Positions 17,701 through 63,999 of a stretch of 64,000 nucleotides of DNA are shown here, piece by piece. The position numbers and the translations under genes are program-made. Below the pieces are notes generated by a model, which saw only the letters and a program-made list of their open reading frames with translations, did not search any database and was not told the origin of the DNA. Where the stretch lies: positions 248,001-312,000 of the forward strand of contig CAWUHX010000300.1 of the NCBI GenBank assembly GCA_963922205.1, read 5' to 3'. The stretch comes from Romanomermis culicivorax (lineage: Eukaryota; Nematoda; Enoplea; Mermithida; Mermithidae). Positions within the stretch are counted from its first letter, which is position 1. Each line of letters starts with the position of its first letter.

Positions 17701-20700
17701 AAATTAATACTAATGTAAATAATTCAAGTATTTACACAAAACTGACCAATTTCAGGCACGGCCATTGCAAGTTCATCTGAAGATGAACTGTAGCCCGAAA
17801 AATATGCAATGACAACATTTAAGCAAGCAAAAGCCATTGTTTTGGAATAGATTACTAGAATAATGGAAGAAAAATGCTGCAACAAAACCAGAATTAGCTG
17901 ATGTGAGTCAAAATAGTGTGCAATTGAAAATAAGTTTCATTATGAAAAAAATTTCTTTAGCTTGCCATTAAGTTTTTATCAGCTCCAATTGGGTCAGTAG
18001 CTAGTGAATAATCATTTTGAAAGCAAAAGATGTTAGAAATAGAAAAAGATCCCGTTTATTGCTGAGATTGGATTCAATAGTGCAAACTGGAAAAACAAGG
18101 TGGAGTTGAAGAAGCTTCTAGTGAACTCAGCAATCAAAGTGAAGGTAGTACAACAGATGCCTTTGTTGATGACAAATTGGGTGAATGAAATGTGAATTAT
18201 TGAATGTTGAAAATATCAGTAGAACTTGGTGAATAATTTATAATAATTTTAAATTTATCACAGTGTAGCAACTTCAGTTTGCATTTTGTACATCTTACAG
18301 CCGATGCCATCAGTGACCCTGGCTGATGCATCGGCATCGGCCGATGGCAAATTTTTGGCCACCGGTCCGTCACTACTTGAGAGACCCCTCCCCCCAAAAT
18401 TTCGGGAGTTACCGACCCCGGCCCGAAAAAAGTCGCCCGATCCCCCCAGACCTTGGGGCCCCGTTACATGTATGATTATGGAAGTGATTTCCATAAATTT
18501 TCAAGTTTAACATGAAGTTTTTATATGAAAATATGGTTTTTTAAATTTGTATGATGATTGCAGAGAAAATTTGAACTTGATGCTTACTGAGAAAGTTATC
18601 CTAAAATTCATTTTCAAAGCATTTTAGTATATCAGAATCTAGAAATTTTTTCGGCGCTCGGTGGTGGAAAGATACAAGACAACGGAAGATATAAGGACAG
18701 AAGCTGCATTTTTAAGGCCCTATACTTTTGTGTCAGAAGGGCATGGACTCAAGTGCTACCTTCAAAGAAAGTTTCTGCAGAAATATACCAAATATCGTGG
18801 CTTTTTGCATTAAAATAATGTTCTTTATACACAGATTTTTCGGCCCATCTTTGAACATGTATGAAAAGACCTAACCAGGAAAACACTGTTTGGAAACGAA
18901 ATTTTCAACAGTAATTTTTTTGAACACGTATCAACTGATTGAATATCCATATAATTATTTATCTGAAAATGCCAGGAAATGGCAAAAAGGAGAATATGTT
19001 TTTCCTTTTTGCTTGTTTCACTGGCTTAAAAGTTCGATATTAGGCCTCCCCATCATTTCATTTCAGCAAAATTCTAACTGAAAAAAACTTTCCGTTTTCT
19101 GGGAAACATATACGCGCCCAGTTTTTTAGTCATTTCTAAAAATGCCTCTGCGCAAAAATGGACAAATCTTTGAAAAATTTCAGTAACAGTTATTAAAGTT
19201 GATTTTTACAGAAGAAAAAACTTTGGTTTAATGAAAAACCCGAAATCTTTGTAATTACTTATGTGCCATTCTTTGTTAGAATCTTTCATTACTGTATACA
19301 ATGCAGTGGCCTATACCTTGTTTCCGAAAAGCAGGTGGTAAACCCACAGTATTCCTGATTCGCAAGACAACGAATTTAGACAATTTGAAACAAATTCGAA
19401 AAATTAATTGCTGGTAAACAGCAAAATTTTTGTTGACGGCGATTTTTGGGAGACTGGCGAACATTATTTGAGTAAAATTAGCTAAAGCATAGTTTCAAAT
19501 AAGTTTAAACTAGCATTAATCGTATTAGAAATTTAAATTCCCGCGTTTTAAACTCGGAAAAAACAATACGTGTGAATCAAGAATACGGTGAGTTTACAAC
19601 CAGGTTCTCGGAAACGAAGTATAGTATTATGCTCAGTGAAATATGGGACAAGGAGAAACATATTCATCTTTTGCCACTTCCTAGTATTAAAGAATGGTTA
19701 TTGTTCTGTATAGTTTTTGTCAATTATAGCACTTTCTTGTACAAGCCTGTAATGAATTTTATACATGCCATTAGAAGCATCACGTGCAGAGCACCCCATG
19801 GGGGGTATGGGGGGGTATTACCCCCGTCTTAGATTTGGAAATTCATTTACTACCCCCATAAAAACAGCTCACTATGGCAAAAAATTTTGGTAGACTTCAT
19901 CCTCTCCCCAGTAGGTTATACTAATTCGAGAAAAATTGCAGAATGTGTGATTCTGAGGAATTACTCACTGCTCTTTTGACACATTTACTGAGAAAATGAT
20001 AATGGGAAAGTATGCAACTTCTGTGCCATATAGCGATTTTTAGGAAAGGATATCAGCACATTAATATATACTACTTGTAGGAAATCATTATAAATAGAAT
20101 TGAGAGATGAAATAATGACTTATGTATATGTGATTAATCAAAAAATCGCCCCTTGGGAAGAAAAACATTATGTTCTTGAAATTCTGCCTCTTCATGCGCT
20201 CTTTTCTTTTTCCCCGCTTCTGTGTTGGGTCTTCTGTGCGCATATGGTTACCCAAGCTGTGGCATACTTTCCTGCTATGAGTTGAGACATGTGAGGTCTG
20301 TTGACGTGGATCAGGAGTGGTACTTCGTTTCAAACTCGTAGTTCACAGTCTAATGGGATTAATAATACTAAAGCCACATTTAGCATCAGGACTTTCAAAT
20401 CAGTGATGGGATAAGCCCATACTGCTGAAGATGCTGGTTGAAACAATGTTTCCAAACGTATGCTGTGCCCGATTCTTGAAATGTGCAGGAATCAGTTGGC
20501 ACAACAGTCTTCAAAGTGTGACTATTCTGTACGTATAATTAGTGCATTAAAGTTGCATGATTGGGAGCTGGAAAATGGAGTTGAAATAGTAGTTTGACTG
20601 TAAAAAGCATAAAGTAGGGGCATTATTCATTTTTATAAGTTCTATGTGGTTACAGTACTACAACTCCCCCTCCTTCGCAAAAAGTTGGGAGCAAAAAAAA

Positions 20701-23700
20701 AGGTTACGGCATATTCCAAGTACTACCCTTAAAATTTACGATTTTACCCCTACCTAAATTTTCGACCTTTGGGACCTCTGATCACGTGTGTTCTATCATG
20801 AAAACGAAGTATGTATTATACATACAGTAATCATGTAGATTTGTAAAAATTGCTACAAGACAAGTGAATTTCATGCGCAGAGGCTTGAAAACGTTTTGTC
20901 TTTTTAAAAACTGGGCGCGTATATGTTTCTTAGAAAATGGAAAGTTTTTTTCAGTTAGAATTTTGCTGAAATGAAATGATATGGATGGGAGCAAAAACAT
21001 ATTCTCCTTTTTGCCATTTCCTGGCATTTTCAGATAAATATCGTACTTTCAAGCTCTTGCAAGGAAGGTGTAAAAAATTCTTTACTGAAAAAGTGTTTTT
21101 TCGAAGTATAGTACGAACGCCACTAAAATGTGGCGAATTTTACATTTTTGGCATATATCATTTATGCAAATTTTTAGCGTACGTTGAGATATTTCGAAAA
21201 ACAAAAATATGCATCAGGGACAACAAAATAGGCTTTTTGCAACGGCGCTACTTAAAATCGATGAATCGAAAAAAAATTTTGTAAACAACATTTATGCAAA
21301 TTTCTGACGTACTATACATTTTTACAAAGAACAAATATCAAAACTGGGGGGTAGAAAAAGAAGTCGTTTCAATGGTGCAACAAAATATCTGAAAATCGCA
21401 AAAAAATTTTTCAAGTATACATTTTCGCTTTGTTTACACTTTCTTTACACTGCACATACTAGATGTTAAGGTGGTTTACTGTGGGCATTTTACTCAGCTA
21501 TCGAACAAAAAAAGAATAGCTTTCTACGACTTATACAACTCGAGACATTTGTGCGATCATCTATCCCAACTCGGCCGAATTTGCATATTTTCTATGATAA
21601 TTAAGTTTACACTGCAAATTTCCAAACCGCCAGTCAGCATCTTGTACAACTCGAGGAGCTGCATCCGACGGAATAAGAATCGTCTAGAAAGACTAAATAT
21701 TCGCAAAGTTATTACTGGTCGGAGTTTTGAGATTTTTCTTAACACTGAAATAAGGTCGCATCTGCATATTTCGAAAAAATTTCGTGGTGGTCCCGACATA
21801 TGACCCTACTGAAGATATTAATAGCACAATCGAGCTAATCGGTTAGAATAATCGTTAGTTATGAAAGGGTGGAAAAACTGTACTCTAGTTTATCTCATAA
21901 CTTTAGCTACAGTATGTCTACAGTATTCTAAGTAGTACCGTGGTGTAGCCTGAATCGAGTTTTATATTGTTGCCAAATTTCAGCTTTGGATGTCTTATAG
22001 TTTTTTAGAAATCTGGTTCTAAACGTGAAAATCGGCGTGCCATAAACGAAACATATTGTAGTCTAGCACTAACGTGCTAGCTACGATATACATTCCCACA
22101 GCGTGTTACAAATTACAAGCCTATTTTTTCGGCATGTTAAATGAATTACAAATTTTTGAATCTCAAAATTTCAATTTGGCTCTTAAAAATTCAGGCCTAG
22201 GAGCCATTTGGTTTATGATTTTCAAAGCAGAGAAAGTTCGTATATGTTCTTATAAACCGGGGGAAACATGATATAACCGGGAAAAACCGGGAATTTCATT
22301 TTGGGAGAGTGCTGGCCACCCTGAAAAAGTTCCGCAAGCATGTTCATCATACATGATATGCATAAAATTAATCAATGTTCTTGAAAAAAGTTCTGGTGGT
22401 GGGTGTTTAAACATTTTTTCCAGCTAATAAGGTATGTGCTGGGTCTCAGGGTAAGAGGGTTTACTCCTCCCTAACTCCCTTTTGTGCATATATGGTTGCT
22501 TTTCAATAAATGACATTTACAACGTGTTTACCAGGGTGGCCACCAATCGGGAAAACCGGGAAATAACCGGGATTTTTTTTAGCCGCTGGGAAAACCGGGA
22601 GAACCAAGAAATAATCGGGAATTTCCTGGAGATCGTCATTTTTTGAGAATTTTAAGCAAAAAATGAATCTCAAACTTTTTTTCTGCCTGATACTAGAATT
22701 TTTTCTGCCTGATACTAGAATGGATAAACAGATACTTTACTCATGATCAAAGTTTATTTTTAAATTTGTACGAAACTATGAATAAAATCATCTATTCCAA
22801 TTAAACGAAGCAGTATACGTCTACCACCTGTCATTACATGCTAATAATGAAGCTGCACACCGTTTTTTACTCGGAGATTTTTTCCGCCTGAGAATCGTAC
22901 CCCAAATTTCTTTTCTCATTTCACAAAAATATTCAGCGTTTTTAAAAACCTTTATAATGTGACCACGAATGTTTTATTTCCTGCATCAACAAAAGCATAC
23001 CCAAATATTCTGATGTTTAAAGCGTCAGTAGCCTGCAAAAATGAAAAAATAGAGCAAATTCTAATCAGGTAAGTCACATTGGGCTGATGAACGGCACACT
23101 GGTTTAATGTTCTTCAATTGTTCAAGGCATATTAACGATAAGTTTCTCATGAATTAATCTGCTATTAAAGTTTCTGTTATTCAGATTATGAATATCGAAT
23201 TTCATCATGTATTCCTTCTTCCGGCGCCCAGCGCCGGAAAAATTTTCGGGTTTTTACATTTTTTACAAAATTTTCGGGTTTTTACATTTGTTTTTGCTTT
23301 AAATCGTTGTAGAAAGTTGTTCTATGATATATTTTAAAAACCGCGAAAATTTTGAAATGCAACCGGGAAAAAACCGGGAATTGGATTTCGTCAAACTGCT
23401 GGCCGCCCTGGACAGACTCTCGTCAGTGCTGGATGATGACGGAAGTTCTTGCTGGTCAAAGAATTTCAATTTTTGGTTGATTGTCTAATTTCTGAATTTT
23501 AACTGCTTTTTCCAATCTAAAACTGATTTGATTTCTGTGGTTTTGACCAAATTAATGAAAAATAATTGATTTACAGCTGAAATTCTGGTTTTTTAATTTG
23601 TTAGCAGCTCTATCTAGCCGATTGAAAATATCGGTATATTGCTCAGGTCTCCACTTATTGATATTTTCTCCAAAAAAAGAAAATTTTTGGAAAAATGACC

Positions 23701-41021: not shown

Positions 41022-41302
41022 CGACCAGTTAGGGAGGGTAAGCTGTAAATTTTGGGGTGGGGGTCCCGAAATTTTCAAAATTTTGGAGAGGGAGTCGAAA
41101 AGACCCCAACAAAGTCGAAAAAATTTCGAAAATTTTTCCAAAAAGGTCAAAAAAAGCCACTTTTTTCTAATTTTTTCTAGTTTGGGGAGGGGTTGGGTAT
41201 TGGGTTGACTAAGTTGAGGGTGGGGGGCCCGACATTTGGGTATAAGGTTCGACCAAGTTGGGGGTGGGGTTTCTCCCCAACCCCCCCCCATTTACAGGTA
41301 AT
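41022..41302. repeat. Diverged K-related fragment
   Basis: Shares TCGACCAGTTAGGGAGGG, AAATTTTGGGG and the right end CCCCCCATTTACAGGTAATG with family K, but with internal duplications. Left end and TSD are not clear. Confidence 0.6.
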
Positions 41303-41312
41303 GTGTGCGCAA

Positions 41313-41985
41313 ATAAGTAAAACACGTGAAGACTTGCTCCTATAAAATTTCTGATATCATATTCGTAATCAGCGGCATCGATTTACCCAAGAAAATATTC
41401 TGATTTAAACAGGTAGATACTTATAATTGTTACAATGAGTAATTTGTGTATTTATGTTTTAAAATGAGGTAAAATGATCTCAAAATGTTTTGCTTTATCA
41501 GGAATAAAACTTTAGTGATGTTGCGTTTGCTTTATTTTACTTGGTTCAGATCCACCATTGTGAAATTTAAAAAAGCCCTGATAAAACCCAGGAAAAAAAC
41601 GATAAAAAACCCAAATTAGAAATTTTGAGAATGGGTTTTACTCAACCCTGCACAGGTATGATCAGGGTTGGGAAAAAACCGATTTCCAAAATTTCGAATT
41701 TGGGTTTTTTATGGGTTCTATTAGTTTTTTTAAATTTCATAATAGTGGATCTGAAGCAAGTAAAAATAAAGCAAATGCAATATCACTAAAGTTTCATTCC
41801 TCATAAAGCAAAACATTTTCAGATCATTTTACTCAATTTTAAAACAAAAATACACAAATTACTCATCGTAACAATTAAAATCATCTTCCTGTTTAAATTA
41901 GAATAGTCTCTTGGCTAAATCGATGTCGCTGTTTACCAATATGATATCAGAAATTTTATAGGATCAAGTCTTCACGTGTTCTACC
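41313..41985. repeat. Palindrome made of two head-to-head copies of family I
   Basis: Arms 41313-41650 and 41663-41985 are reverse complements with few mismatches; shared words include ACACGTGAAGAC, AAAATGTTTTGCTTTATCAGG and GATCCACCATTGTGAAATTT and their inverses. The two arms meet at AACCCTG and CAGGGTT ends with 12 bases between them. The left copy lacks its outer end. Confidence 0.85.
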
Positions 41986-43739
41986 GATTTGCATTCACAT
42001 ATCGTATCACAGGATATCATGCGTTTTTCCTTTTGTACTGAGTTGTGCTACTTTCCCACGAAACATTATTAACATCATCAAAAAAAATGCTAAAAATAGA
42101 CTACTCGATAATTGACGCACATAATAGGATTTATAGCCTAATATTTGTTGTGAAAAATTGTTTTGGTTTGATTTTATTAATAGCTGATCCGGCTATATAT
42201 GAATTCCGTCAATATACAGCAGACGAGAATATGGCAACACAAGCGTTAGTTCGTTACACTTTGTAACCTGCGTTTCCTGGACTAATCTAACTTGTCTTTC
42301 CTGTAGTTTGTTCATTTCGAACTTACATTACGTTGAAACTTTCATTTTGTTTTAGTTTCGTTTTTTAACCCTGTCCAATTTCTGGATATTTTTTTCGCTA
42401 TCTTTGCGTGTTTTCTTTTCACTTTTGTTCGGTTTTAAAAATGTTTTTAGTGTTTCACCATAATACTCTCTGGATTTTTGTATTTGCTTTCTTTTGTCAT
42501 CAACTAGTAAACATCACAACAACAACAATTTGCTAAGCAAAAGCAACTTTTGATTTCAAATCAAGATTTACAAAGGCAACAAAATCAACAAAAATTTTTT
42601 CAAATGATTTCTGACCCACGTGAAGACATGCTATACTAATACCTAATATGACAAAATTAATTTTGCCTTCAATATTTGTTTGTTGTTTTGTGTTATCTCA
42701 TCTCAAATCTGTTGTCACGTCAGTGTGAGGAGACTACATTGCAGTTACTACAGTTAGCTCAACTCTCAATTAAATCAGGAAGGAATTGGTATTCTTGTGA
42801 ACAAGATGGAAAAAATGATTTTTTTTAAAAACGCCCAAAAACCCCAAGTGCCCAATCAGGGTTTTTCTTGCACACAGCAACCAAATTTCGGGCTGTGCAA
42901 CCAAATTTTTTCTGTCACGTTGCACAGTGCAACTTGAGGCCTGACTGCTCTCTTGATTAGGTGATTGGGTTTTCTGTTCGGAGATGCATTTTTATGCGTT
43001 CTAAAATGGAAAAAAGTAAAAATTTGTAATTCATTGTAATTCATTTATAATTTTTTATAATATTCTAGTGCGCGGTTATAAAAGGCATTCCAGTAAGTGC
43101 TTATAAGTTATAATTATCAACGTATTATGGATAAATGTTTGATCCTGTATTGTTTGTTGACGAATTTGATGAAAACTAACATTTTTGTCTGTCATTTTCC
43201 CAAAAAATTTTTGCGATCTTCATAAAAATTTTGACTTTGTGTGATTAAAACCTTTTGAGTTCAAAAATTTTTGCCGATTGAAAGATCCAAATTCTTAGTG
43301 GCTTGCCTAATTTTTGAATTTTAGTTTGTCCGACTGAAAATTCATTACATTCACTGAGAAATCAAACATTCTGTCTGGGAAATAAAAGGTGAAAAGATTC
43401 ATTTTCCAGCGTTCTTGAATAACACATTACTCTACTCTAGTCATATTAATCTTTTCATTTTCTCTATAAAACTCAAAAAATTGAGTTTTAAATGTCTAAA
43501 ACTAACGCGGATCGAATGAAATACTAGAAAACTAGTTTGCGATGGTTTTTCCGATAAATTTAAGCAAATTTATCGATTTTAGAGTGGGCAACCAAAAATT
43601 TATCTGTGCAACCAAAATTTTTCCCCAAGTTGCACATTGCAACCTGGCCATTGAAAAAAAAACCTGTGCCCAGCCCAATGTTCCAACCCTAAAAACCCAT
43701 CAACCCAAAAACCCTAAAACCTAATGCCGACCAACCCTG
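41663..43739. mobile_element. hAT-like non-autonomous element I (2.08 kb)
   Basis: Ends CAGGGTTGGGAAAAAACC and CCGACCAACCCTG; flanks GGTATGAT (41655-41662) and GATATGAT (43740-43747), a 7/8 match to an 8-bp TSD. Inside are two GTTGCACAGTGCAAC / GTTGCACATTGCAAC segments next to AACCAAATTTT (42880-42935, 43590-43645) and no coding frame of note. Confidence 0.75.
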
Positions 43740-43858: not shown

Positions 43859-45077
43859 CTGTAAGAGGTCCGACCAGTTGGGGGGGGGGGATCCGAAATT
43901 TGGGGGGGGGGGGGTCGAAAAAATCGAAATTTTTCTCAAAAAAGCCAATAAACATACACTTTTTTGCAAATTTTTTTAATTTTTTCCAAACTGGAGGGGG
44001 GTTGGTTGGAGGGGTTGGGCAGAGCACCCCATGGGGGGGGGGGTATGGGCCTCTTAGATTTGGAAATTCATTTACTACCTCCATAAAAACAGCTCACTAT
44101 AGCAAAAAATTTTGGTAGACTTCATCCTCTCCCCTGCAGGTTATACTAATTCGAGAAAAATTGCAGAATTTGTGATTCTGAGGAATTACTCACTGCTCTT
44201 TTTGACACATTTACTGAGCAAATGATAATGGGAAAGTATGCAACTTCTGTGCCATATAGCGATTTTTAGGAAAGGATATCAGCACATTAATATATACTAC
44301 TTGTAGGAAATCATTATAAATATAATTGGGAGATGAAATAATGCATTATGTATATGTGATTAATCAAAAAATCGCCCCTTGGGAAGAAAAACATTATGTT
44401 CTTAAAATTCTGCCTCTTCATGCTCTCCTTTCCTTTTCCCCGCTTCTGCATTGGTTCTTTTGTGCGCATATGGTTACCCAAGCTGTGGCATACTTTCCTG
44501 CTATGAGTTGAGACATGTGAGGTCTGTTGACGTGGATCAGGAGTGGTACTTGGTTTCAAACTCGTAGTTCATAGTGTAATGGGGTTAATAATACTAAAGC
44601 CACATTCAGCATCAGGACTCTCAATTAGAAGCACTGTTCCAAACCTAATCAGTGATGGGATAAGCCCATACTGCTGAAGATGCTGGCTGAAACAATGTTT
44701 CCAAACGTATGTTGTGCCCGATTCTTGAAATGTGCAGGAATCAGTTGGCACAACAGTCTTCAAAGTGTGACTATTCTGTACATATAATTAGTGCATTAAA
44801 GTTGCATGATTGGGAGCTGGAAAATGGAGTTGAAATAGTAAATGTTTTTTGACTTAAAAAGCGTAAAGTAGGGGCATTAATCAGTTTTGTAAGTTTAAGA
44901 AAGCACAACCCCCCCCCTTCCTTAGCAGAAAGTTGAGAAAAAAAAGGTCAGGGCATTTTTCAAGTACTACCCTTAAAATTCAAGATTTTACCCCTACCTA
45001 AATTTTCGACCTTGGGGACCTCTGGGGTTGGGTATATGATTGGCCTTGTTGGGGGGTCCCCTCCAATTACAGGTATG
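43859..45077. mobile_element. MITE K, copy 2, split by element L2
   Basis: The left part (43859-44019) starts CTGTAAGAGGTCCGACC; the right part (45025-45077) ends CCAATTACAGGTATG. Flanks CCAAGTAC occur at 43851-43858 and 45078-45085. The left TIR has lost its first bases CATAC. Confidence 0.82.
44020..45024. mobile_element. Element L, copy 2 (1005 bp), inserted in MITE K2
   Basis: Begins CAGAGCACCCCATGGGGG and ends CTTGGGGACCTCTG; perfect 8-bp TSD GGGTTGGG at 44012-44019 and 45025-45032. It is the sister of L1 at 19787 over the full length, with a small extra block near 44622-44650 that L1 lacks. The target is the G-rich part of MITE K2. Confidence 0.93.
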
Positions 45078-46740: not shown

Positions 46741-49187
46741 TTATATTAATGTCCTCGTATAAATTAATATATAAATAGAAAAATCTATATCTTTAAGTTT
46801 TCGAGAAAAAGATTCTACTGAAGTCGCTTTTACAACGTGGTCGGGTAATGTGTTCCATGTGTGAACGACTCGTTTAGCAAAGCTATATTTGTCAACGTCA
46901 AGATGAGAATAGCCTATGTTGAGTTTAAATGAGTTTCTAGCTCTAGTAGGATTTGTACAGAAGGAACAATAATTTTCGACTGGTAGAGTAGATTTTGGGA
47001 TGATGGAGTAAGCCATAATTAGATCGAAATGAACACGTCTAGTCTCTAATCTGATAAGATTCATCTCTTTTAATCTTTGTTTGAAAAGTTAATCTTTGAT
47101 CATAAGATAATGATTTGTCAGTACTAACCCATTCTGTGAATCTCCTCAGAAATTTTTCAACTGCCACAATATCTTTAATGAGATATAGATTCCAGACTAC
47201 TGTACTGTATTCTAGAATAGGATGTACATATGTGGTGAATGCTTTTGCAAAGAGAAATTTATCTTTCGAAAAAAAGCTTCTTTTAATCAAGCCACAGACT
47301 CGCATAGCTTTATTCACTATAAAGTTAGGATGGGCACCAGAAGAAAGGTTGTCAGAAACGAAGACCCCAAGATCTTTAATAGCGGATTCCGAGTCAGGAA
47401 CAGAAACCCCATTTAGATAGTAAGGATCTTTTGGGTTGTTTTTTCCAATGTGAAGTATCGAACATTTTTCACTAGAAACAGGTAGCTGCCACAAATCAGC
47501 CCAATTACTTGAGTGAAGTAAATCGAGTTGAAGTACTTCTTTTTCAAAAGCCAGGTTGAAAATCTTTACATCATCAGCAAAAAGGAATACCTTGCTATTA
47601 GACCTATGATCAGTAATATCATTAATAAAAATTTGAAATAATGTAGGTCCAAGGACGCTGCCTTGAGGGACACCACTGATTACAGATTTGATCTCTGATA
47701 AGGAGTCATTCAGCTTAATGCATTGGGTTCTACCTGCCAAGAAAGCATGGAGCCATCTCAGTGTAGTACCTCTTATACCATAGGCATCAAGTTTAACGAG
47801 CAACTTACTAAAGTCAATATATGCAACATCGATAGTTTGCTTATTATCAATTCCTTTAGTCCAAAGATTAGTACATTCTAGTAATTGATGCGTGCAAGAT
47901 TTTCCTTTCCGAAAACCAAATTGGTAGTCACTTAATGAGCCATTAGTTCGTAAATAAGTTTGTATGTTTTTGTTTATAATAGATTCCATCGCTTTACAGG
48001 TTACGCAACAAAGCGAGATTGGTCGATAATTTTTTGCTAGAGAAATATCGCCTTTCTTGTGAATCGGGATAACGATAGCATGTTTCCATAATTTCAGCAA
48101 GGACCCCGTGTGATAAGAAACTTCAAATATAGTACTGAGAGGTTTATTGAGGACATGCTTGAGTTTCTTGAGAAAAAAGCACATAACCCATCAGGTCCTA
48201 GAGCAAGAGATGGTTCAAGTTTCCCAAGAGCTTCCAGAACAACTTCATCACTAAAAGTTACTAATCCAGTTTGGTTGTTACACCTGGGAGGAAATAAGGG
48301 TTGAGTTCCATTATCATATGTGAAAACTGAACTGAAATACTCGTTGAAGAAATTAGACATAATTTTTTTGTCATAAACATTTTCGCCATCTACATTCTTC
48401 AAACAAGGAATCGAAGAAGTCGATGAGAGCCGTGTTTTTACAAATCTATAGAAAGATTTCAAGTTTTTGGATTTCAACAAATTTGTTTCTTGGTTGGCAT
48501 AGTGACCATAAATTTTGGCCTTAACTTGAGAGCAGACAGATTTATATTGAAACTTGAGCTCATTGCTATTTACTATTTTCAGCCTTTTCCAGATTGATTT
48601 TTTCTGTGCTTGAAGTTTGGTAATATGCCGGGGTAAATATTTCATTGACGTTGATTTTTTCAATGGTACAAAAATAGAAATACATTTGTGAAGAATTGAT
48701 AATAAAGCTGAGTAAAAGTCGTCTACGGTGATACAAGTAGAAAAACAATATGCCACTGGACAGGGCCGTGCGCAGGATTTTTTCATGGGGGGGGGGCGGA
48801 CTAGATTTTTTCACTGAATGGCCCCAGAAAATGTTGATTTTACGCCAATATACTGTGTGCATACTGCCTCTATGACCGCCCCCCCCCCTTGTGCACGGCC
48901 CTGCCACTGGATATTAGAAAGATATGCTACTAACAACTCACAATTTTCTTTAGAAAATCTCTGTTTTTTGAAGTAAAACACTTAGAAGAAGTAGAACTAC
49001 CCCTGAGGGAGAAATTAATGCTGCAATGATCACTAGAAGAAAATGGGACATCAGTATCAACATCGAAGACTAGAGTGCTGGGTATACATAGAACCAAATC
49101 AAGTATGTTATTTGTACGAGTAGGTTCACTAACAACAGAAGTTAGGCCAAGATAGCGAAAACAGTTTAAGAAAGTTTGATGAGTCTC
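46741..49187 (-). pseudogene. LINE endonuclease/reverse transcriptase, frameshifted and partly deleted
   Basis: From 5' to 3': endonuclease C-terminus (49187-48930; NNILDLVLCIPSTLVF and SSSDHCSI, the catalytic-histidine region); linker and RT entry (48760-48150, LEPSLALGPDGL); RT core (48184-47039) with NYRPISL, DYQFGFRKGKSC, GVPQGSVLGP and the catalytic FADD at 47559-47582; and the C-terminal domain (47064-46741) with YSFAKRVVHTWNTLPDHVV. Frames change near 48180 and near 47050. Between AYIDFSK and LLVKLDAYGI about ten residues are missing compared with relatives, removing the region just after the first catalytic aspartate. The copy cannot be active. Confidence 0.9.
48761..48903. mobile_element. 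hAT-like MITE inside the LINE (143 bp)
   Basis: TIRs CAGGGCCGTGCGCAGG and CCTTGTGCACGGCCCTG; perfect 8-bp TSD CCACTGGA (48753-48760, 48904-48911). Runs of G and C lie just inside the ends. It separates the endonuclease block from the RT block of the LINE. Confidence 0.95.
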
Positions 49188-50333: not shown

Positions 50334-50454
50334 TGGTGCACACTACCCTATAGCGCTATAATGATAAGTGTATATACAGTATATTTGTCAGATTATCGAT
50401 TACTGTAGCAAACAGATAAACTTGCTCATCAAATTCCAAAACATCTACAAGAAG

Positions 50455-50835
50455 CTAAAAATGCGTCAAACGGCAGGGACACAAGCTTGGGAGGCTTGGG
50501 CACGACCACACGACCCGCGGGAAGTCAAGGGGTAAGGCGCCGCACAATTTCTTGCAAATTGCTTTGTTTCTTGGAATCTTTTCGAAAATTTGATCAAAAT
50601 ATTGACTACTAAAATGAGCGTTAAGTGCGGTACATTGTAACGGGCCAGGCCACATGCCCCGCGGGAGGTCAAGGGGTAAGGCACCGCACATATTCTTGCA
50701 AATTGCGCTGTTTCTTAGAATCTTTTCAACAATTTGATTAAAATATTGACTACTAAAATGAGCCTTAATGGCGACACATTGTGAAGGGCCAGGCCACATG
50801 CCCCGTGGGAGGTCAAGGGCTAAGGTGCCACACAT
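50455..50835 (-). other. In-frame 48-codon tandem repeat, left arm of P
   Basis: The 144-bp repeat unit equals 48 codons, giving an open minus-strand frame of 126 codons with PLDLPRGMWPGP, AHFSSQYFNQIVEKI and AICKNMCGA recurring. The mirror copy is at 52790-53170. No signal that it is translated; no known domain recognised. Confidence 0.5.
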
Positions 50836-50859
50836 ATTCTTGCAAAATTTTTATTTTTT

Positions 50860-52780
50860 ATGTTTTTTCTTATAATTTCTTGTTTTTTGGTTTTTTATAT
50901 TCGTTTTTTCTTCTTATTTTTTCGTGCTTTTCTTAGTTAATTTTTTAGTTAATTGTATTTTTTCTTTTTTCTCGGTTCATGTGTTTTCTTCTAAATTCTT
51001 CTATTCTTTTGCTAGCTGTCTGTTTTTACTCATTTTTTCTTTTTCTTTTTTTGTTTTTTTGTTGAGCTTTGGTTTTTAGTTTTAATAATCGCGATTTCTG
51101 TGTTTGTATTTCTTATATATTTTTTCCTTTTTGTTGTTTCTTCATTTTTACTTATTTTTAGTTTCTTATCTTTTTTTTATCTGTTTTTTCTCCAGTTTTT
51201 TTATTGAATGTTTAGTTATTTTTTGTTTATTCATTTTAATTTATCTTTTTTCAGTTTATGAATTTTGTTGAGTTGTTGTTTTTCGATTATTTTTTTTACT
51301 TTCTCGTATGTATTTATTTTTTCAGTTTTAAATATTTTCTTTCAAATTTTTGTCTTTTGCTTGCTGTCTGTTTTTATTCATTTTTTTTTAAATTTTTTTT
51401 TGTTTTTTCAGTTTATTGGTTTTAATTGAAAATTGCGTTTCTCTGTTGTTGTCTTTTATTGACTTTGTTTTTTGTCAAGTTTTTTCATTTTTTGATTTAT
51501 TTTTTTGCTTTTGTCTTTTTTGTCGGTTTAAATATGGTTTTTATTGTCAAGTTTTTTGTTATTCTATTGAAAAATTATAGTTCAAGATGTCACACAATTA
51601 TGTAATTTTTGGGAAAACACACGGCAAGCTGACTATTGAACATTTTTCCACAATTTTTGAACATAAAATTCGACGTTGATCCAAAATTAAATCTGAAAAT
51701 TGAAATTTATCCGACCACTAGAAGAAAAAAATTGAAATTAAAAAAAATTAAAAATAAAAAAAAACTTTCAACAAAAAAATTTTTTTTACCTCAAGAAAAT
51801 AAAAACAGAAAAAAATACAAACGAAAAGCAAGTGCAGCACAAAAACCATAAAATTCATAACAATGCGCAATTTTCCAGAAAAAAATTTCAGAAAACTAAA
51901 AAACGTAGAAATGAACTACAAAAAAGCGAAAAAACAGATTAAAAAATTACGAAAAAAACATTTTTTGACGTAAAATAAACCATAAAAACAAATAAAATCC
52001 AAAAAACCAAATTCTATCATGAACTCTAACTTAGCAATCAAAAAAACAAAAAATCAACAAAAAAGAGAACAAAAAAATAAAACACAAAAAACAAAAAAAT
52101 TTAATCATAAACTATAATTTCAAGCCAAAACACTAAAAAACTTGACAAAAGAACAATAAAAAACACAAAAAAGAATAAATAAGAAAAAATTAAAAAAGCG
52201 AAAAGCAGCTAACACACCAAAAATGTCAGCATAAACTACAATTTTTTATTGAAAAAACAAAAACACTTTGAAAAAATAAAAACAAAAGAAACAAAAAATG
52301 ATCATAAACTATAATTTTCACACAAAAAATGATAGAAGTCAACAAAAAACAAACTAGAAAAACGGAAGAAAAGCAAACAAAAAGAACGAAAAATAAAATC
52401 TGCAATTCTTTCTAGAAAAAAACATAGGAAACAAAAAACAGAAAGCAAGTAAAACAAAAAAACAGAAAGCAAGTGATGCACAAAAAACAAAAATGTCAGC
52501 ATAGACTATTATTTTTTATTGAAAAAACGAAAACAGTTGAAAAAATAAAACACAAATGAAGAAAAAAATAAAAAACAAAAAAATTAAAAGAAAAAGAAAA
52601 AAATGAGTAAAAACAGACAGCTAGCAAAAGAACAGAAGAATTTGGAAGGAAACACATAAAACCGAAAAAACAAAAAATACGAAAACTAAAAAATTAACTA
52701 AAAAAACACGAAAAATAAGAGGAAAAACAAATATAAAAAACAAGAAATTATAAGAAAAAAATATAAAAAATAAAAATTTT
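50860..52780. repeat. T-rich to A-rich low-complexity core of P
   Basis: Nearly all T with scattered G/A to about 51560 and nearly all A with scattered C/G from about 51700. Short matching words such as GCTAGCTGTCTGTTTTTACTC (51012-51032) and its inverse (52610-52630) prove pairing of the halves. Frames in this region are artefacts of composition. Confidence 0.8.
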
Positions 52781-52789
52781 GACAAGAAT

Positions 52790-53170
52790 ATGTGCAGCGC
52801 CTTACCCCTTGATCTCCCGCGGGGCATGTGGCCTGGCCCCTCACAATGTGCCGCCATTAACGCTCATTTTAGTAGTCAATATTATAATCAAATTGTTGAA
52901 AAGATTCGAATAAACAGCGCAATTTGCAAGAATATGTGCGGCGCCTTTCCCCTTGACCTCCCGCGGGGCATGTGGCCTGGCCCGTCACAATGTACCGCAC
53001 TTAACGCACATTTTAGTAGTCAATGTTTTAATCAAATTGTAGAAAAGATTCCAAGAAACAGGGCAATTTGCAAGAAATTGTGCGGCGCCTTACCCCTTGA
53101 CCTCCCGCGGGTCGTGTGGTCGTGCCCAAGCCTCCCAAGCTGGTGTCCCTGCCGTTTGACGCATTTTTAG
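52790..53170 (+). other. In-frame 48-codon tandem repeat, right arm of P
   Basis: Mirror of 50455-50835: three units of 144 bp, open for 126 codons in the plus direction, ending CPSLPSWCPCRLTHF. Amino acid differences between the two arms are few. Confidence 0.5.
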
Positions 53171-53896
53171 CTTCTTGTAGCTATTTTGAAATTTGATGAG
53201 CAAGTTGATCTTTTTGCTACAGTAATCGGTAATCTGATAAATAAACTGTATATACGCTTATCATTATAAAGCTATAGGGTAGTGTGCACCAGCTGCAGTA
53301 ATACTATTTTCTCTAACAACGTGAGTGAGATAAGAAAAAATGATCTAGAAAACGGTTTCTGCGATCCGAAAAGAAATTTAATGCTGCGAAAATTCAGATA
53401 TTTTTATGGACTTTTTGTCATCAAGTTTTCCTTTGTCTTTTCGGCTTCCTTCGTAGCAACTATTAAAGACTGGATTAGGATGTCTTGTCTATAATTGCTT
53501 ACTCGTGAAAATAGCTAAGTCGAAAGTCGCTTCGCATAAATTTTTTGTTGGATAATTGTGCCAAAAATGTCAATTTTTTGTTTGAATCAAACACCAAAAA
53601 TATAAGTTTTGGTTCTCAATCCAACTGAATCATACCTGTACTTGGGGGGTTGGGGGGGGACCCCCCACAACTTGGCCAACCCAGTCTTACCCAAAATCAT
53701 TTACCCCCCCCCCCCCCCAGTTGAGAAATTTTGCGTTTTTAGCCCCTAAAATGACTAAAGGTCAAGGAAATTTAGCCTTGGACCAGTCAAAAAAATTGTG
53801 CCGATTGGCAGAAACGCTGAAAATTTTTCGTGCCATTCCAAATTTTTTTGTGCCAAAAACCATGTTTTGGCACAAAAAAAAAACACTGATTTGAAA

Positions 53897-57524: not shown

Positions 57525-58559
57525 TGTTACGTAAGGGTCACTTGTTACGTAAAGGGTAATTTTCCTGGTTATGTAAACGCCTCTAAAATATTCGTTTATT
57601 AAAATAGAATATTAACAGGCTAAATTACAATAATGTGGATAAGGCAGGGGACACGGGCAGGAGAATAAGAGCAACTGAGAGAAAAGGAATCTGAGAGCTA
57701 CTAAATATGAGTCGGGGAGGTGAGATTCCTATGCAGGGATAGGCGTTGTCTCGAAAATAAATTATTGGCGAATAAACGTCGCCGATAAACACACACAATT
57801 GGACGGATGAACGTCGTCCTCAAACAAATACAAACTAATTGGACAGGTGAACGTCGTCCTCGAACAAATACAAACTAATTGGACGGATGAACGTCGTCCT
57901 CAAACAAATACAAACTACTTGGACGGATGAACGTCGTCCTCAAACAAATACAACCTGCTGGACGGAATGAACGTCGTCCAAGAAAAATACAACACACGAA
58001 GAGGTAGGGAACTCACGTAGTCGGTAAAGTGAGACGCTGCCGATTTTCGAGAATCCAAAAGAACGAACTGACTGTTCTTTCCTTTTTTTTTCGAGGATGC
58101 GGAAAAAGAGGTGGGGTTTTTGGTGAGGGAAATCTCATTCGCTAGAGTTGTTTATTGGGAATGGGAGGAAAACGTTTGAACCTGATTGGTTGAACTTGTT
58201 TATGACGGGTTCCTTGAAGTTGTCCACCCATCGGGTGGGAGTTGGTAAGTGGACAAAAGGGATTAATAGCTCTCTGTTTTTTGAGCTCTTATTTTCCTAC
58301 TGTAATCCTTTCCATACATATTTTGCGATGGCCGAGTAAATAATGAAACGAAAATGCACTAATGGTTTTGGCAAATTATCGTCAAAAATGTACAAACAAT
58401 GGGCTACTTAACCTACATTTTCCCTAATGGTAAAAAATGGAAAAACAACTTAATAATGGATTACTGTACAATTCCTACACGAACTAATTTGGACGAAATT
58501 ATACAGTAACCTTAAGCTTAGCTTAATTTACATACTTTACAAATTCACTTATCGTGACA
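57525..58559 (-). repeat. 3' LTR of the Ty3/Gypsy element (1035 bp)
   Basis: On the minus strand it begins TGTCACGATAAGTG right after the polypurine tract and ends CCCTTACGTAACA, giving the TG...CA ends of LTRs. The 5' LTR is outside the window, so the left border (57525) rests on the TGTTACGTAAGG motif and could shift by a few bases. Five tandem 40-bp units occupy its 3' third. Confidence 0.8.
57760..57997. repeat. 40-bp tandem units inside the LTR
   Basis: Units begin at 57801, 57841, 57881, 57921 and about 57960, with a degenerate sixth at 57764. Each has the stem-loop word GGACGGATGAACGTCGTCC followed by an AACAAATACAAACTAATT spacer. Bases GGACG and CGTCC pair. The position within the LTR suggests a role in transcription or packaging, but this is only inference. 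Confidence 0.9.
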
Positions 58560-58571
58560 CCTCCCTTCTTT
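58560..58571 (-). promoter_or_regulatory. Polypurine tract, plus-strand primer of the LTR element
   Basis: On the minus strand AAAGAAGGGAGG lies directly before the LTR start TGTCACG. A purine run at this point is the primer for second-strand synthesis in LTR elements. It is 28 bases after the stop codon of the pol frame, leaving no room for a downstream env gene. Confidence 0.88.
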
Positions 58572-58599: not shown

Positions 58600-61500
58600 T
58601 CACAATTCGATCGAAGCTGGCGAATTGGGTCGAGCAGAACGGTGGGTGGAGCTACGTTGAACTCGGCGGAAGGCGTTTTCTGGATGGGGACGTCGTTGAT
58701 TTTCATCGTTTGGTTGATTTGAACGGACATTGACTTTGGGATGATACGGCTGCGTATTGTTGACGTGAATTGCCTCTTCTCGATCCTTTTTGGGGTTATA
58801 GATCCAGAGGTTGGGGTAGGATATCCGCATAATTTTGTAGGGACCAAGGTGTAGGGGGGCCAACTTAGACGTTAGTCCTTGTTTTACTGTTTGGACGGGT
58901 TTGAGGACCAGGTCACCAACTTTATATTCATGGTTGTTGATTTTCATGCCATACTTTTTTGAATAAAGAGCTTGGCTATTTCTGATGTGGTCCTGGACAA
59001 CGGTCAAAGCAGTGTGAAAATGATGTTTGACGTCATTGACATAATCGTTCATGTCTATAGCGTAGGGCGATGGTGGGGTTCGAGAAATATCCGACGGGAG
59101 GTCCGGTTGTCGACCATATAACAATTCAAAGGGGGAATAGCCAGTGCTTTCATTTTGGTGAATATTTGTGGCAAAAATGGCAAAAGGGAGATGATCATCC
59201 CAATCAGTATGCCAATCGTCAACATACATCCGCATGCGGACAACAAGGGTTTGGTTTGCACGTTCGACTTCGCCATTGGCCATGGGATGGTAGGGGGTAG
59301 TGTGGACTTTTCTGGTTTCACAAAGTCGAGTTACTTCGGTCATGAGGATGGAAGTAAAATCAGTGCCACGGTCGCAGTGCAAAATTTTGGGAGCTCCGTG
59401 TCTACAAACAATTTTTTCGACAAAAGCTTTGGCAACGGTAAGTGCTGTAATATCGTGGGTGGCTATAGCTTCAACATATTTCGTGAAATAATCAATAAAA
59501 ACGATGATAAAACAGTTTCCATGTTCAGAAAGGGTCATGGGACCAACACAATCAACACCTACCCTTTCAAATGGGCGTTTGACTTGGATGGGAACCAGAT
59601 TAGCCGTAATTCTATGGTGTGTGGGTTTATTCACTTGACAAGGGTGGCATGATCGGCAATAATCAGTGATCATTTTTGCCATGTCCGGCCAAAAATACTT
59701 TCTTTTGGTAAGGTTGATCGTTTTTCTTATTCCAAAATGGCCGGAAAACTTATTATCATGGTTATCCTTGATAATAGTTTGTTGGAGAGCACTGGGTACA
59801 TAGAGTTTTTTGAGGGGGCCTTGCTGCTTATAAATCAAGTCATTTTCGAGGGAGAAATTTTGAACATGGACAGGGTCTCCGATTTCTATTTGTTCTTTGA
59901 TTTTCCGAAGGATAGGGTCACAAAGCTGCTGTTCTCGGAAATTTTTCAATATTTCTTCGTTTTCTGAAGCTTCTGCTTCTAAAACACTGTTGATGGGCAT
60001 GGGTTGCTCAGGACGGGACTGTGAAAAATTGTCAATATCAAAAGCAGAACGGGTGGTGGGAAGGGGAGTACGGGATAAAGCATCCGCATTTCCATTAGCT
60101 GTGCCTTTTCTGGGTTGGATGTTAAGCTTAAAGTCACTTAGGGCAAAGCCCCAACGGCAACTTTGGGGGGATGGGTTATTTTCTTTTTCCAAAATGCTTT
60201 TTACGGCTGTGTGATCAGTGTGGACCGTGACCTCATGTTGGTAGAGGTATGGGCGAAAATGACGAACAAATTCAACAACAGCGAGGGTTTCTAGACGGGT
60301 TATGGAATATTTTTGTTCATGAGGGTTTAGGCTGCGGCTTGCATACGCAATGGGGTGTTCCTTTCTGTCGGATCCTATTTGGCTGAGAACAGCGCCTATG
60401 CCAGTGACACAAGCATCGGTTTGCAAGATAAATGGTTGTGCGAAATCTGGGTGGGACAGGATGGGTGCAGATATGAGGTGTTGCTTTAGGCCGTCAAAAG
60501 CACTTTGTTGATCCTGTCCCCAGACGAAGGGAACATCTTTTTTTAACAATTTGCTAAGTGGGGAGCTGATTTTGGAACAATTTGGGATGAAACGACGGTA
60601 ATAAGAAATCAATCCCAAAAAGGACTTTATTTGTTTGACTGTTTTTGGGGCGGGCATTTTTTGAACTGCTTCAATTTCTTCGGGGTCAGGGGAAATTCCG
60701 TCGGCTGAAATTATGTGGCCAAGATATTTCACGTGGGACTGTGAAAATTTGCACTTTTGGACTTTCAATTTTAGTCCTGCTGACTGCATTCGAGAAAGTA
60801 CTTCTTTCAGCCTGTCCAGCATTTGGTCATGGGTTTTTCCAAAAACAAGCACATCGTCCAAGTAGACGAGACAGGTTTGCCACTGCAAGTTGGATAAGAG
60901 AACATCCATGAGGCGCTGGAAAGAGGCAGGGGCGTTACACAGACCAAAGGGTAGGAAATTAAAATGATAAAGGCCGGCGGGGCTGTTAAAAGCTGTTTTT
61001 TCTCTATCACTTTCCTTGATTGGGATACTGTAATAGGCATTGGTTTGGTCAAGGGACGTGAAAAACTGCATGCCGCGAAGGGTGTCGAAAATATCGTCAA
61101 TTCGGGGGATGGGGTAACTGTCTTTTTTGGTGACTTTGTTTAGACCACGAAAATCTATGCACAAACGCATGCCACCATCTTTTTTCTTTACAAGAACCGT
61201 GTTGGTGGAATAAGGGGACGTGCTCTTGGAAATGATACCCTGGCGTTCCAAGTTTTCGACTTCTTGACGAATAATATCCTTTTCTTTTGGGGAGGTACAA
61301 AAAAGGGGTCTCCGGACGGGTTTAGTATCCTCAGTGTCAATCACATGTTCAACCAAACTAGTGCGTCCATTATCGGCTTTGGAGGTTGAGTATAGTTCAG
61401 GGAACATTGCAAGGGTGGACAAAAGCTTTTGCTTCTCATTTGGGCTGATGGATGTTTGGGATAGGTCAACATTGGAGTTCAACCATTTCATTACATTATT

Positions 61501-63999
61501 GGGTGTTAATATTTCATTGGGTGTGGAATTACACTGGGCTACCATTGCTGATTTTTCGGTAAAAGTTTGGATTGTGCCCAATCTTGTTTTCTCATATAGG
61601 ACAACTGGGGCTTGGGTGGGATTGAAAATGGAAACCATGATATGGCCTTGAAAAATGGTGGAGACACTGTTAGCTGCGCAAATTCCGAATTTTTCAAATA
61701 ATTGATCACGTGGAAAGAATTCAACAGTTTTCGTATTTTCGTACATTTTTGATACGGGTACAGTAAACTCTGTGATGGTTCTGGGTGGAAGGGCAACATT
61801 ACCCGGCAAAGAAATTTCGCCTCGATGTTTGGGTGGGTTGTAGGAAATGCCTCTACATGGGACAACAGTTTTTCCAAAATGGACAAAGGAATTTTCATTG
61901 TTGAATTCGTAGCTTTTGAACCAGTTAGTGAAATTGGCACCTAAAATAATAGGTGAGGGACAATCGTCTTGTATTTGAACCACAATTGTTTCTTCCAAAT
62001 CGTCCACTTTTAGAGTCACGATGGCCGAACCTACTAAGGGGATAGGGAGTTTATTTGCAGCGGTGGCCATGATAGTGGGGGAATTTTTCCAGACAAGGTC
62101 ATTAATAGAACTTGCAACTTTTTTATCCATGATCGAGTAAGCTGCGCCAGAATCGACCATAGCATAAACGGTTTTTTGGTTATTAATTGTAAGCAAAACA
62201 TGTGGGATTCTATCAATTATATCATTTTTGGATGCAAAATGAAATAGGGGGGATGGGGCACTAGGAATTGCTCGTTTCACGTAATGAATGCTGCTGCTGC
62301 GCGTGTGAGTGGCTTCCGAGTTTTGGGCGTGGTGGGCTACAAGTTGGAACAGGGCTTGTCCGAGGGTTGGTAGAGGAGGCGGGTCTTCGCTAGAATAGTG
62401 GGGATTTTCGTAAAGGGATGCGGCAGATGGCAACAGTGGGGGCATTCTTTTGGCGCGCATGTTGTGGAGGTACGCACAAGACCAAAAGAGGACGAAAACT
62501 ACTGCAGCAATGCTGGCTATGACCACTAGACCATTAACGATTAATTGTAAGGGACCTTTCAGCAGGTTATTCAAGCCATCTGTAGCACTGTGGGCTACGC
62601 CACCGATAATCTGTTCCAATGATTTGGAATATCCTTGCATGGCCTTTGACATGCCTTGGCCTGCTCCTGACAGGGCTTCGTAAATGATGGAGGGATTCAA
62701 CGACATTTCTGAAGTATAGTTCATTATTCTATGCACATTAGCTTCTAAGCTGTGTACTTTGTACATGTACTGCTTCAAAAAAGCTAAATTGGAGGGGATA
62801 GATCCTAACTGATTATGAAAAATGGCTGGTGAGTCAAAATGAAAAACTTTGTATTTTCCATGCCAGAAAACTTGAACGGGTACTGTAGTGACGTGGGTGG
62901 GTCCAGTTTCTGTCATCCATTTGTCTCCATTTTTGTATATGCTTATGGGTCGATGATGGCAATCAATTTTTGGGCTAAAAGGAAGGAGATCAAAGGTGCC
63001 GGGGGTCACGAACCAAAGTGTATCATTAATTCTGACAGGAAGGTTTTTGTAACACGTTTCATTCACTTTATGGGAGGTAAAAATTTCTGTGGCATTTAGG
63101 GATTTACATTTTGAGATGGTAAGAACATCGCCAGTAAACTCGGCGATTATGTCAGTCCGATGTAAAAATGCACAGGCACCAAGGGTGGGGTCAAAATGTA
63201 AAAGTTGCCAAATGATGTCAAGATATCTTTGGGCTTGACAACACAATTCTGACCAAACATTTCGGAAATTTTCGTATTCCAAGTCCAAAATTTTTTGTGT
63301 TAAGAAATTTAACTTCGCATTCACTGGGTCTGGGTTGATAGGGTCTGAATTTTCATCCGAATTTGATGAGGCGAGTTGGGTCATATTTTTAAGCACTAAA
63401 ATGACTCCTTGGTGGGTTAGGACGGCTTTTTCAATTTTGGAACATTGAGTGTAAGCAGACTTTAGGGTAAATGCGCCCTGAATAGCGTCTATGACAACAT
63501 AATTATCGCTTAGGGTTCCGTTATATGTGCCTTTTAGTTGGAGGGAACAGGTGTCCTTGAATTTGGTATCGTCCCACAAAATTATTCCATCAGTGAGAGT
63601 GCACTGTCCGGCTAGGGGCTTGCAACCGCCGGAGTCGCCTAAATCGGTGGTCAAATGATCAGGGTCCCAAGAGGCAACGTTGCCTTCTTCGATAATCAAA
63701 TTTGTTACTGTAGTACAATGATCACTACAGCACCACTTAAAATCGACTTTTAGTGGGTTTTCTGTGCTCCAAAAACCAGGGGAGACGTGGGTCAAGTTTT
63801 TTGTTTGGTAACTTTTGGTGAAAAATGCTTCTCTCCACTCGGACGCGGGAATTGGGGCAATTTTTGAGGAGTCCAGGACAATGCCTTTTGATCCGAAAAA
63901 TCCCGTGTTTGTACAAATAGTTCTCGTACGCATTTGACATTTGAAGGCAGGGGCGGTATCTGGTTGGGTTTTTGGAATATAGACATCGGCCACTATTTT
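58600..63999 (-). CDS. Ty3/Gypsy polyprotein: glycoprotein-like region fused to protease-RT-RNase H-integrase (5' cut by window)
   Basis: One uninterrupted minus-strand frame, open to the right edge, so its start is not seen; numbering is from 63993. Residues 1-481: ectodomain-like, rich in Cys and N-glycosylation sites (NLT, NGT, NAT, NET, NDT, NYT), with a Gly/Ser-rich membrane-proximal part. Residues about 482-509: a single hydrophobic membrane anchor, then basic RAKR. Protease: VDSGAAYS with catalytic D614. [12 protein letters not shown] near 940, [13 protein letters not shown] near 1010, YLDD 1044-1047. RNase [11 protein letters not shown] with D1193. Integrase: HX6H at 1412/1419 with a CysXXCys finger, then D1481, D1541 and E1577 (35 residues apart, DD35E), and a GPY module near 1715. 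All catalytic residues are present and there is no stop, so the copy may be young. Gag is not visible. The fold of the ectodomain is not recognised with certainty. Confidence 0.93.
62465..63993 (-). other. Glycoprotein-like domain with membrane anchor (part of the polyprotein)
   Basis: This block precedes the protease without a stop codon. Features seen: paired cysteines (WCCSDHC, ELCCQ), at least six N-X-S/T sites, a Gly/Ala/Ser-rich stretch ([18 protein letters not shown]) before a 25-30 residue hydrophobic segment at 62465-62547, and a positively charged stop-transfer. Such organisation is expected of a type I viral fusion glycoprotein. Envelope proteins captured by invertebrate LTR elements come from several virus groups; the Gly/Ala-rich pre-anchor segment recalls class III glycoproteins of chuvirus or herpesvirus gB type, but I cannot prove this from sequence alone. 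Confidence 0.6.

Follow-up and report, generated by a model that had tools for sequence, protein, structure and literature searches.

Envelope-carrying retroelements and the present locus

In the errantiviruses the env gene is a separate frame downstream of pol and is made from a spliced RNA. Here we describe a Ty3/Gypsy-type element of the nematode Romanomermis culicivorax, which lies in a stretch of 64,000 nucleotides (contig CAWUHX010000300.1 of assembly GCA_963922205.1; C300:248001-312000), called the window in the following. It shares with the errantiviruses gypsy, ZAM and tirant the Gypsy-type Pol, the long terminal repeats (LTRs) and a captured viral envelope glycoprotein (Env). However, a separate env frame downstream of pol was not found; instead, Env is located upstream of the protease (PR), and an LTR follows 40 bases after pol. 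The element is real, old and repeatedly amplified, and its captured class III envelope sits inside the Gag-Pol frame. The anatomy, the gene order, the common frame in many copies, the kinship of Env, the joint history of Env and reverse transcriptase (RT), and purifying selection in the two large families tested were computed directly. To our knowledge, the Gag-Env-Pol order is unlike that of any other envelope-carrying retroelement. Among the titles, abstract openings and excerpts covered by a literature search, none reports such an order; the element set of Chary and Hayashi 2025 (eLife 108449), outside this comparison, may contain an earlier description.

Two of its traits have already been described (papers given by PMC number are cited from excerpts). 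Env within an uninterrupted polyprotein is found in Atlas virus, a belpaovirus of hookworm with Gag, Pol and Env in 2828 residues, the purified Gc of which was reported to trimerise and to insert into membranes; it differs from the present element by its order Gag-Pol-Env, its class II phlebovirus-like Env and its place in BEL/Pao (PMC9094657). A chuvirus-type glycoprotein captured by an LTR retroelement is found in Anakin of mosquitoes, which is BEL/Pao, whereas the present element is Gypsy-type (PMC7642597). The BEL/Pao elements Tas, Cer7 and Roo, one of which has been linked to herpesvirus, also hold a captured env, but downstream of the polyprotein (PMC7642597). Envelope-carrying Gypsy elements across animals were described in a 2025 paper, as cited in PMC13172572 and PMC12859917, and type III fusion glycoproteins are mentioned for some gypsy elements (PMC13172572). 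Glycoproteins of Jingchuvirales, the same kind near Gypsy sequence as here, adjoin Gypsy fragments in Hymenoptera and other insects; in the excerpts of this 2023 survey the copies are mostly fragmentary and no clear capture by Gypsy is given (PMC10084718). Some of these insect loci may be decayed remnants of elements like the one described here. Troyka, with CG..CG termini, a 3-bp duplication and no env (PMC12440569), is ruled out by the LTR ends found here, TG..CA with a 4-bp GTAC duplication. The glycoproteins of Monjiviricetes and glycoprotein B (gB) of herpesviruses resemble the window Env in profile and fold, but are free, unfused viral genes. What seems to be new is that a Gypsy-type element has Env between Gag and PR, sharing their frame, and that this position is kept across several families and data sets.

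Anatomy of the element

The window holds a single open frame on the minus strand (58600..63999), which extends over 1799 codons without stop and runs off the window edge. Along this frame the Pfam domains appear in the order PF24664 (Monjiviricetes_fusion), Asp_protease_2 (frame residues 603-690), RVT_1 (937-1097), RNase H (1185-1290), H2C2 (1401-1459) and rve (1475-1572). The motifs DSGA, YLDD and GPY were all found, and the DD35E residues are D1543 and E1579, counted from the motif GEVERAN starting at 1576. The individual features are:

58600..63999, minus strand: Env-Pol portion (1799 codons) of the Gag-Env-Pol frame, truncated at the window edge and continued in L009, the stretch to the right of the window
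62545..63999, minus strand: class III fusion-glycoprotein ectodomain (Pfam, phmmer, fold)
63892..63915, minus strand: conserved CTNTGFFG, candidate fusion loop 1 (C29, T30 and G36 invariant in seven rows)
63727..63738, minus strand: conserved KWCC, candidate fusion loop 2 (C90 and C91 invariant in seven rows)
62458..62532, minus strand: membrane anchor of Env, hydrophobic, then a net charge of +3 in 15 residues
61930..62193, minus strand: aspartic protease with DSGA (Pfam and motif)
60709..61191, minus strand: reverse transcriptase with YLDD (Pfam and motif)
60130..60447, minus strand: RNase H (Pfam and motif scan)
59623..59799, minus strand: H2C2 zinc-binding domain of the integrase (Pfam and motif scan)
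59284..59577, minus strand: integrase core (Pfam), the catalytic E being just outside the match at 59263-59265
58831..58848, minus strand: LGPYKI (motif scan), which we take to be the motif of the GPY/F module
58560..58571, minus strand: polypurine tract AAAGAAGGGAGG, read from the sequence, presumably the plus-strand primer site
57525..58559, minus strand: 3' LTR, 1035 bp, TGTCACGA...CGTAACA
57797..57979, minus strand: 4.6 tandem copies of a 40-bp unit within the LTR (repeat scan)

A first reading of these letters alone (the sequence-only reading) had proposed a single frame from the ectodomain through PR, RT, RNase H and a DD35E integrase, and open frame, Pfam and motifs confirm this. It had also placed a polypurine tract and an LTR within 30 bases of the stop; both are there, but 40 bases lie between the stop codon (58600-58602) and the LTR, the first base of which is 58559.

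Extension of the contig to the right yielded the 5' LTR at L009:3110-4144 (C300:314110-315144), which is identical to the 3' LTR of the window at 1021 of 1035 positions (98.65%). The 4-bp direct repeat GTAC is found as target duplication at the outer ends of both LTRs. Together with the termini TG..CA this follows the pattern of Metaviridae/Ty3-Gypsy (TG..CA, 4–6 bp), and two further features of that group are present, the order PR-RT-RNase H (RH)-integrase (IN) with a GPY/F module and a Gag with Ty3-type capsid and CCHC knuckles. Two bases downstream of the 5' LTR starts the primer-site-like TGGCGACCGT, a candidate primer site. Gag follows the 5' LTR and directly precedes Env, with which it shares strand and frame. 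It consists of a capsid part (Ty3_capsid, E 4.5e-5, 23.4 bits, under the Pfam cut-off of 29.1) and two CCHC knuckles (zf-CCHC, E 7.4e-6). Because it sits just right of the window, Gag could not be seen in the sequence-only reading, which had left two possibilities: that Env lies between an off-window Gag and Pol was right, whereas an Env replacing Gag is ruled out by the Gag found upstream. The complete element has the order LTR-Gag-Env-PR-RT-RH-IN-LTR, apart from two in-frame stops in the Gag part of the window copy, a TAA within Gag and, between it and the segment preceding Env, a TGA.

A listing that begins at start codons had suggested that capsid, knuckles and Env of the window copy each have a frame of their own; read from stop to stop, they lie in a single frame interrupted by two stops. 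The idea of a read-through stop conserved at the Gag-Env border was likewise rejected, because the nearest stop varies between copies (placed in 29 of the 40 stretches treated below) and because five copies with 99% identity lie in stop-free frames. The 40-bp repeats inside the LTR (57797-57979) have the core GGACGACGTTCATCCGTCC and are possibly promoter or enhancer units.

The envelope glycoprotein

PF24664 matches the frame residues 224-389 with an E-value of 6e-14. When Env was taken together with the start of PR, the same profile reached 53.9 bits against a cut-off of 27, and Glycoprotein_B matched too, under the cut-off of that family. A phmmer search against PDB matched herpesvirus gB chains with E 0.002 or weaker, and these differ in the residues of the window that are matched (172-313 versus 440-533). 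The predicted structure of Env found gB in Foldseek with E 3e-17; its top match in BFVD is the glycoprotein of Keturi virus (E 7.5e-29), and glycoproteins of chu-like viruses are at ranks 8 and 12. Judged from profile and predicted fold, Env is a class III fusion glycoprotein as in chuviruses and herpesvirus gB. Structure prediction, which had been proposed as a check, thus speaks for a viral glycoprotein and not for a host domain or a Gag.

In the ectodomain, 13 cysteines are invariant across seven aligned rows. GFFG and KWCC are partly conserved and stand at positions that are plausible for bipartite fusion loops. CTNTGFFG and KWCC are candidates for such loops, the former in a place presumably comparable to that in gB. 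Behind the ectodomain lies a single strong hydrophobic segment, at about residues 490-514, in agreement with the membrane-anchored ectodomain of the sequence-only reading. About 56 more in-frame codons before the ectodomain, including a signal-like segment, are off-window at L009:1001-1170. As to the N-glycosylation that had also been claimed, Env, with 7 sequons in 500 residues, exceeds the remainder of the window frame (9 in 1260 residues) in sequon density, but it is the sequon-densest part in only one of the four relatives counted (P0009). This clue is therefore weak, and sequon density was dropped as a proof of glycosylation.

Copies in the Romanomermis genome

The genome searched comprises 359 Mb in 595 contigs. 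The copies counted were found through Env, and copies without Env would escape these searches. In a protein search with the Env piece 80 of 4004 candidates were scored, and for 29 of the 80 the surrounding frame runs without a stop over 2471-2687 codons; five of these are 99% identical to the window copy. The 29 frames are called Gag-Env-Pol because of their length; read directly, six of them extend to RT and two more cover Gag and the start of Env. At the DNA level 41 Env matches were found, 33 of them with at least 94% identity, the window's own included. Two of the 32 others at this level were read over Gag and the start of Env, and in both this part is one frame with no stop.

A profile search gave 2320 candidates, of which 68 places were scored (8 with open frames of at least 2480 codons); 40 of these 68 stretches were examined. 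Defined by more than 80% identity over more than 1500 bp, these form five nucleotide families of 23, 10, 3, 3 and 1 copies. None includes the window, and their Env is 36-48% identical to the window Env. Gag is found upstream of Env in 38 of the 40 stretches (exceptions L012 and L041) and RT downstream in 37 (exceptions L016, L046 and L047, the last one cut by the contig end), while PR was detected with the window query in 35. Gag, Env and RT are in one frame to the stretch end in seven.

A separate observation is a region (G000:C180:404-17640) with three Env matches exactly 8365 bases apart, one TGA in each, which suggests a tandem array of one provirus.

Relatives in protein databases

Residues 1-560 were searched against 5.8 billion proteins, with lengths of about 990-3150 aa and favouring long proteins, which gave five matches (P0001-P0005); the Env piece alone gave one (P0006, 536 aa). 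The PR-RT part had 3687 matches, and among the 120 listed PF24664 is present in P0002, P0009, P0021 and P0046. The whole series Gag-Env-PR-RT-RH-IN is contained in one protein in P0002, P0004, P0009 and P0046 (2486-2973 aa). P0001 consists of Env-PR-RT-RH and P0021 of a part of Env plus the whole Pol, each with no visible Gag. With a profile that combined the Env of the window with six relatives in full length, the best match in PDB is Ty3 Gag-Pol (E 4e-69), no BEL reference being among those compared. A scan of IMG/VR with three aligned rows resulted in 214 pattern matches, none of which was confirmed.

Two of the relatives have peculiarities of their own. P0009 has two aspartic-protease-like domains in tandem (1360-1454 and 1774-1863) between Env and RT. 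P0006 is a stand-alone Env relative of 536 residues with a signal-like segment, in which a membrane anchor was not found; it may represent a fragment or a gene adopted by the host.

Joint history of Env and Pol

A tree of RT was calculated for 35 rows, including 18 of 105 other matches but no named reference lineages, and rooted at the midpoint. In this tree 16 rows are grouped (99/95), namely 14 Env-bearing ones, several of which belong to the same families, together with P0010 and P0019. P0019 has a hydrophobic segment (37-55) before PR and no Env match. P0004 appears outside this group on a long branch, which points to an older origin, an exchange or a second capture. The Env tree (18 rows) recovers the RT groups L018+P0002+P0046 and L024/L030+L011+L019/L028. 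Furthermore, Env and RT identities of 12 rows are correlated (Spearman 0.71), a value reached by none of 5000 label permutations. The agreement of the trees and this correlation let us conclude that Env and Pol mostly travelled together and probably shared most of their history.

Selection was assessed by the ratio of nonsynonymous to synonymous polymorphism (pN/pS), pooled over pairs of copies with 90% coverage of the piece and no stop. In the two large families it amounts to 0.18 (8 of 10 copies) and 0.15 (11 of 23) for Env and to 0.15 (9 of 10) and 0.12 (12 of 23) for RT. Constraint on Env is about equal to that on RT in these two families, the small ones being uninformative or contrary. 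The many stop-free copies and the low pN/pS in the large families suggest fairly recent activity.

Proposed expression and membrane topology

The reading that we prefer, with a probability of roughly 0.62, is that this Gypsy-type element with a class III Env inside its Gag-Pol frame is made as one polyprotein threaded through the membrane of the endoplasmic reticulum (ER). The genomic RNA would be translated as one Gag-Env-Pol polyprotein. In it, the hydrophobic stretch that separates Gag from Env would serve as an internal signal sequence and bring the ectodomain into the ER lumen; the second one would stop the transfer, and Gag and PR-RT-IN would stay cytosolic. Signal peptidase would then free the N-terminus of Env, the element's own PR would part Gag, Env tail and enzymes, and Env would supply the particles with a fusion spike. 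The structural polyproteins of alphaviruses, flaviviruses and hepatitis C virus are handled in a similar way.

Hydrophobic segments were scanned in the first 1500 residues of L018, L019, L027, L030, P0002-P0005, P0009 and P0046. All ten of these frames, which span both borders, have one segment before Env and one after it; the first is located between Gag and Env, in L018 just before Env, and one additional segment each is found elsewhere in L027 and P0003. In all 11 of 11 rows the 15 residues past the second segment carry a net positive charge, and following the positive-inside rule of membrane topology Env would therefore be lumenal and Pol cytosolic. Methionines were also scanned, with 9 of 13 rows placed. 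P0003 has none from the last zinc knuckle to the signal-like segment and P0005 none in the 315 residues before that segment. The window frame has none between the TGA and the signal-like segment, yet there are only 8 codons there. Thus, in P0003 and P0005 Env has no start codon of its own, and the simplest view is that, in some of the elements at least, it is made within a longer product.

Several points weigh against this polyprotein. The main difficulty is that a 1:1:1 product is odd for Gag, which is expected in excess; moreover, a Gag and Pol attached to the ER would not resemble the known particles of Gypsy elements. Charge around the signal-like segment is more positive on the preceding side in only 7 of 11 rows, with ties in two and the reverse in L027 and P0003, and a methionine is present at most 40 residues before this segment in L018, L019, P0004, P0006 and P0010, where Env may have a start of its own. 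The Env model has a mean predicted local distance difference test (pLDDT) of 62.7, and template modelling scores (TM-scores) do not exceed 0.44 among the matches listed. In one small family pN/pS of Env is 0.52 (3 of 3 copies), another having one usable copy of three, and for RT values of 1.77 (2 of 3) and 0.52 (3 of 3) were obtained in small families. P0003 is Gag-Env-PR, its frame then being lost in RT, P0005 is Gag-Env followed by stops, and P0010 is a Gag-Pol without the Env ectodomain.

Between Gag and PR, P0010 has two weaker hydrophobic stretches (509-527 and 570-588, scores 1.63 and 1.61; the maxima elsewhere are 1.43 in Pol and 0.7 in Gag). The residues 480-640 of this close RT relative look as if the ectodomain alone was lost, which suggests that the spike is dispensable for the lineage. 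Concerning a fixed order, which had been named as a check, Env keeps its place and frame among the copies found through Env; this one database relative has no ectodomain.

The alternative that survives best, though we regard it as unlikely, is that different messages come from the one frame: in-frame removal of Env would yield Gag-Pol, and a message skipping Gag would yield Env or Env-Pol. Splicing would solve the problems of Gag excess and membrane at once, the searches made here ignore introns, and a methionine at most 40 residues before the signal-like segment was found in 5 of the 9 placed rows. It is the way in which errantiviral Env is made; retroviral Env, too, comes from spliced RNA, and Cer1 has a spliced cerv message (both PMC10309623). 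On the other hand, P0003 and P0005 have no near start codon, therefore a spliced leader would need an upstream start there, and many copies are open across both borders, which is not needed under splicing.

It is much less probable that Env has ceased to serve in entry, with its signal and anchor kept only as a membrane tether of Gag and Pol and the ectodomain as a passenger. This would fit P0010, which keeps the two hydrophobic stretches without an ectodomain and is placed within a mostly Env-bearing RT clade, but the 13 cysteines invariant in seven rows and an Env pN/pS about as low as that of RT in the two large families speak against a passenger. Finally, a nested insertion or assembly chimera in one copy, with an unrelated viral gene between Gag and Pol, has next to no probability and is refuted by the many genomic copies (33 of 41 Env DNA matches at 94% or above, the window's own included; in other families, 38 of 40 stretches have Gag upstream and 37 have RT downstream) and by the relatives known from other data sets.

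Retroviral Env, like that of most retroelements with an env gene, is made from a message of its own, and a signal peptide within Gag-Pol would seem to pull the enzymes into the secretory pathway. The threaded polyprotein with one signal and one anchor would keep Gag and Pol cytosolic; on paper, the topology resolves this problem. More tentatively, at somewhat less than even odds, the lineage may have left the gag-pol-env order, with a membrane-threaded Gag-Env-Pol in which each Env spike would arise attached to a Gag on one side and to PR, RT and IN on the other, thereby delivering spike, shell and enzymes together to the budding site. We know of such joint delivery by a threaded polyprotein otherwise only from plus-strand RNA viruses. 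If the threaded polyprotein proves true, retrotransposons would have a second way to become retroviruses, with Env captured midway in the Gag-Pol frame, and the control of the amounts of Env, Gag and Pol would become a directly testable question. For annotation it should be kept in mind that Gag-Pol proteins of about 2500 residues may contain a viral glycoprotein.

Other features of the window

The tRNA scan of the window found none, and no Rfam match in it reached the gathering score. A second RT fragment is located at 47039-48184 (minus strand, RVT_1 E 3.7e-28). A direct repeat of 1 kb with 90% identity occurs at 19786-20780 and 44019-45024, and a palindrome-like self-inverted stretch of 700 bp, 83% identical, at 41301-42000. 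Inverted repeats of about 730 bp at 50334-51063 and 52574-53291 are 91% identical, each with 144-bp tandem units, and are perhaps the ends of a DNA transposon.
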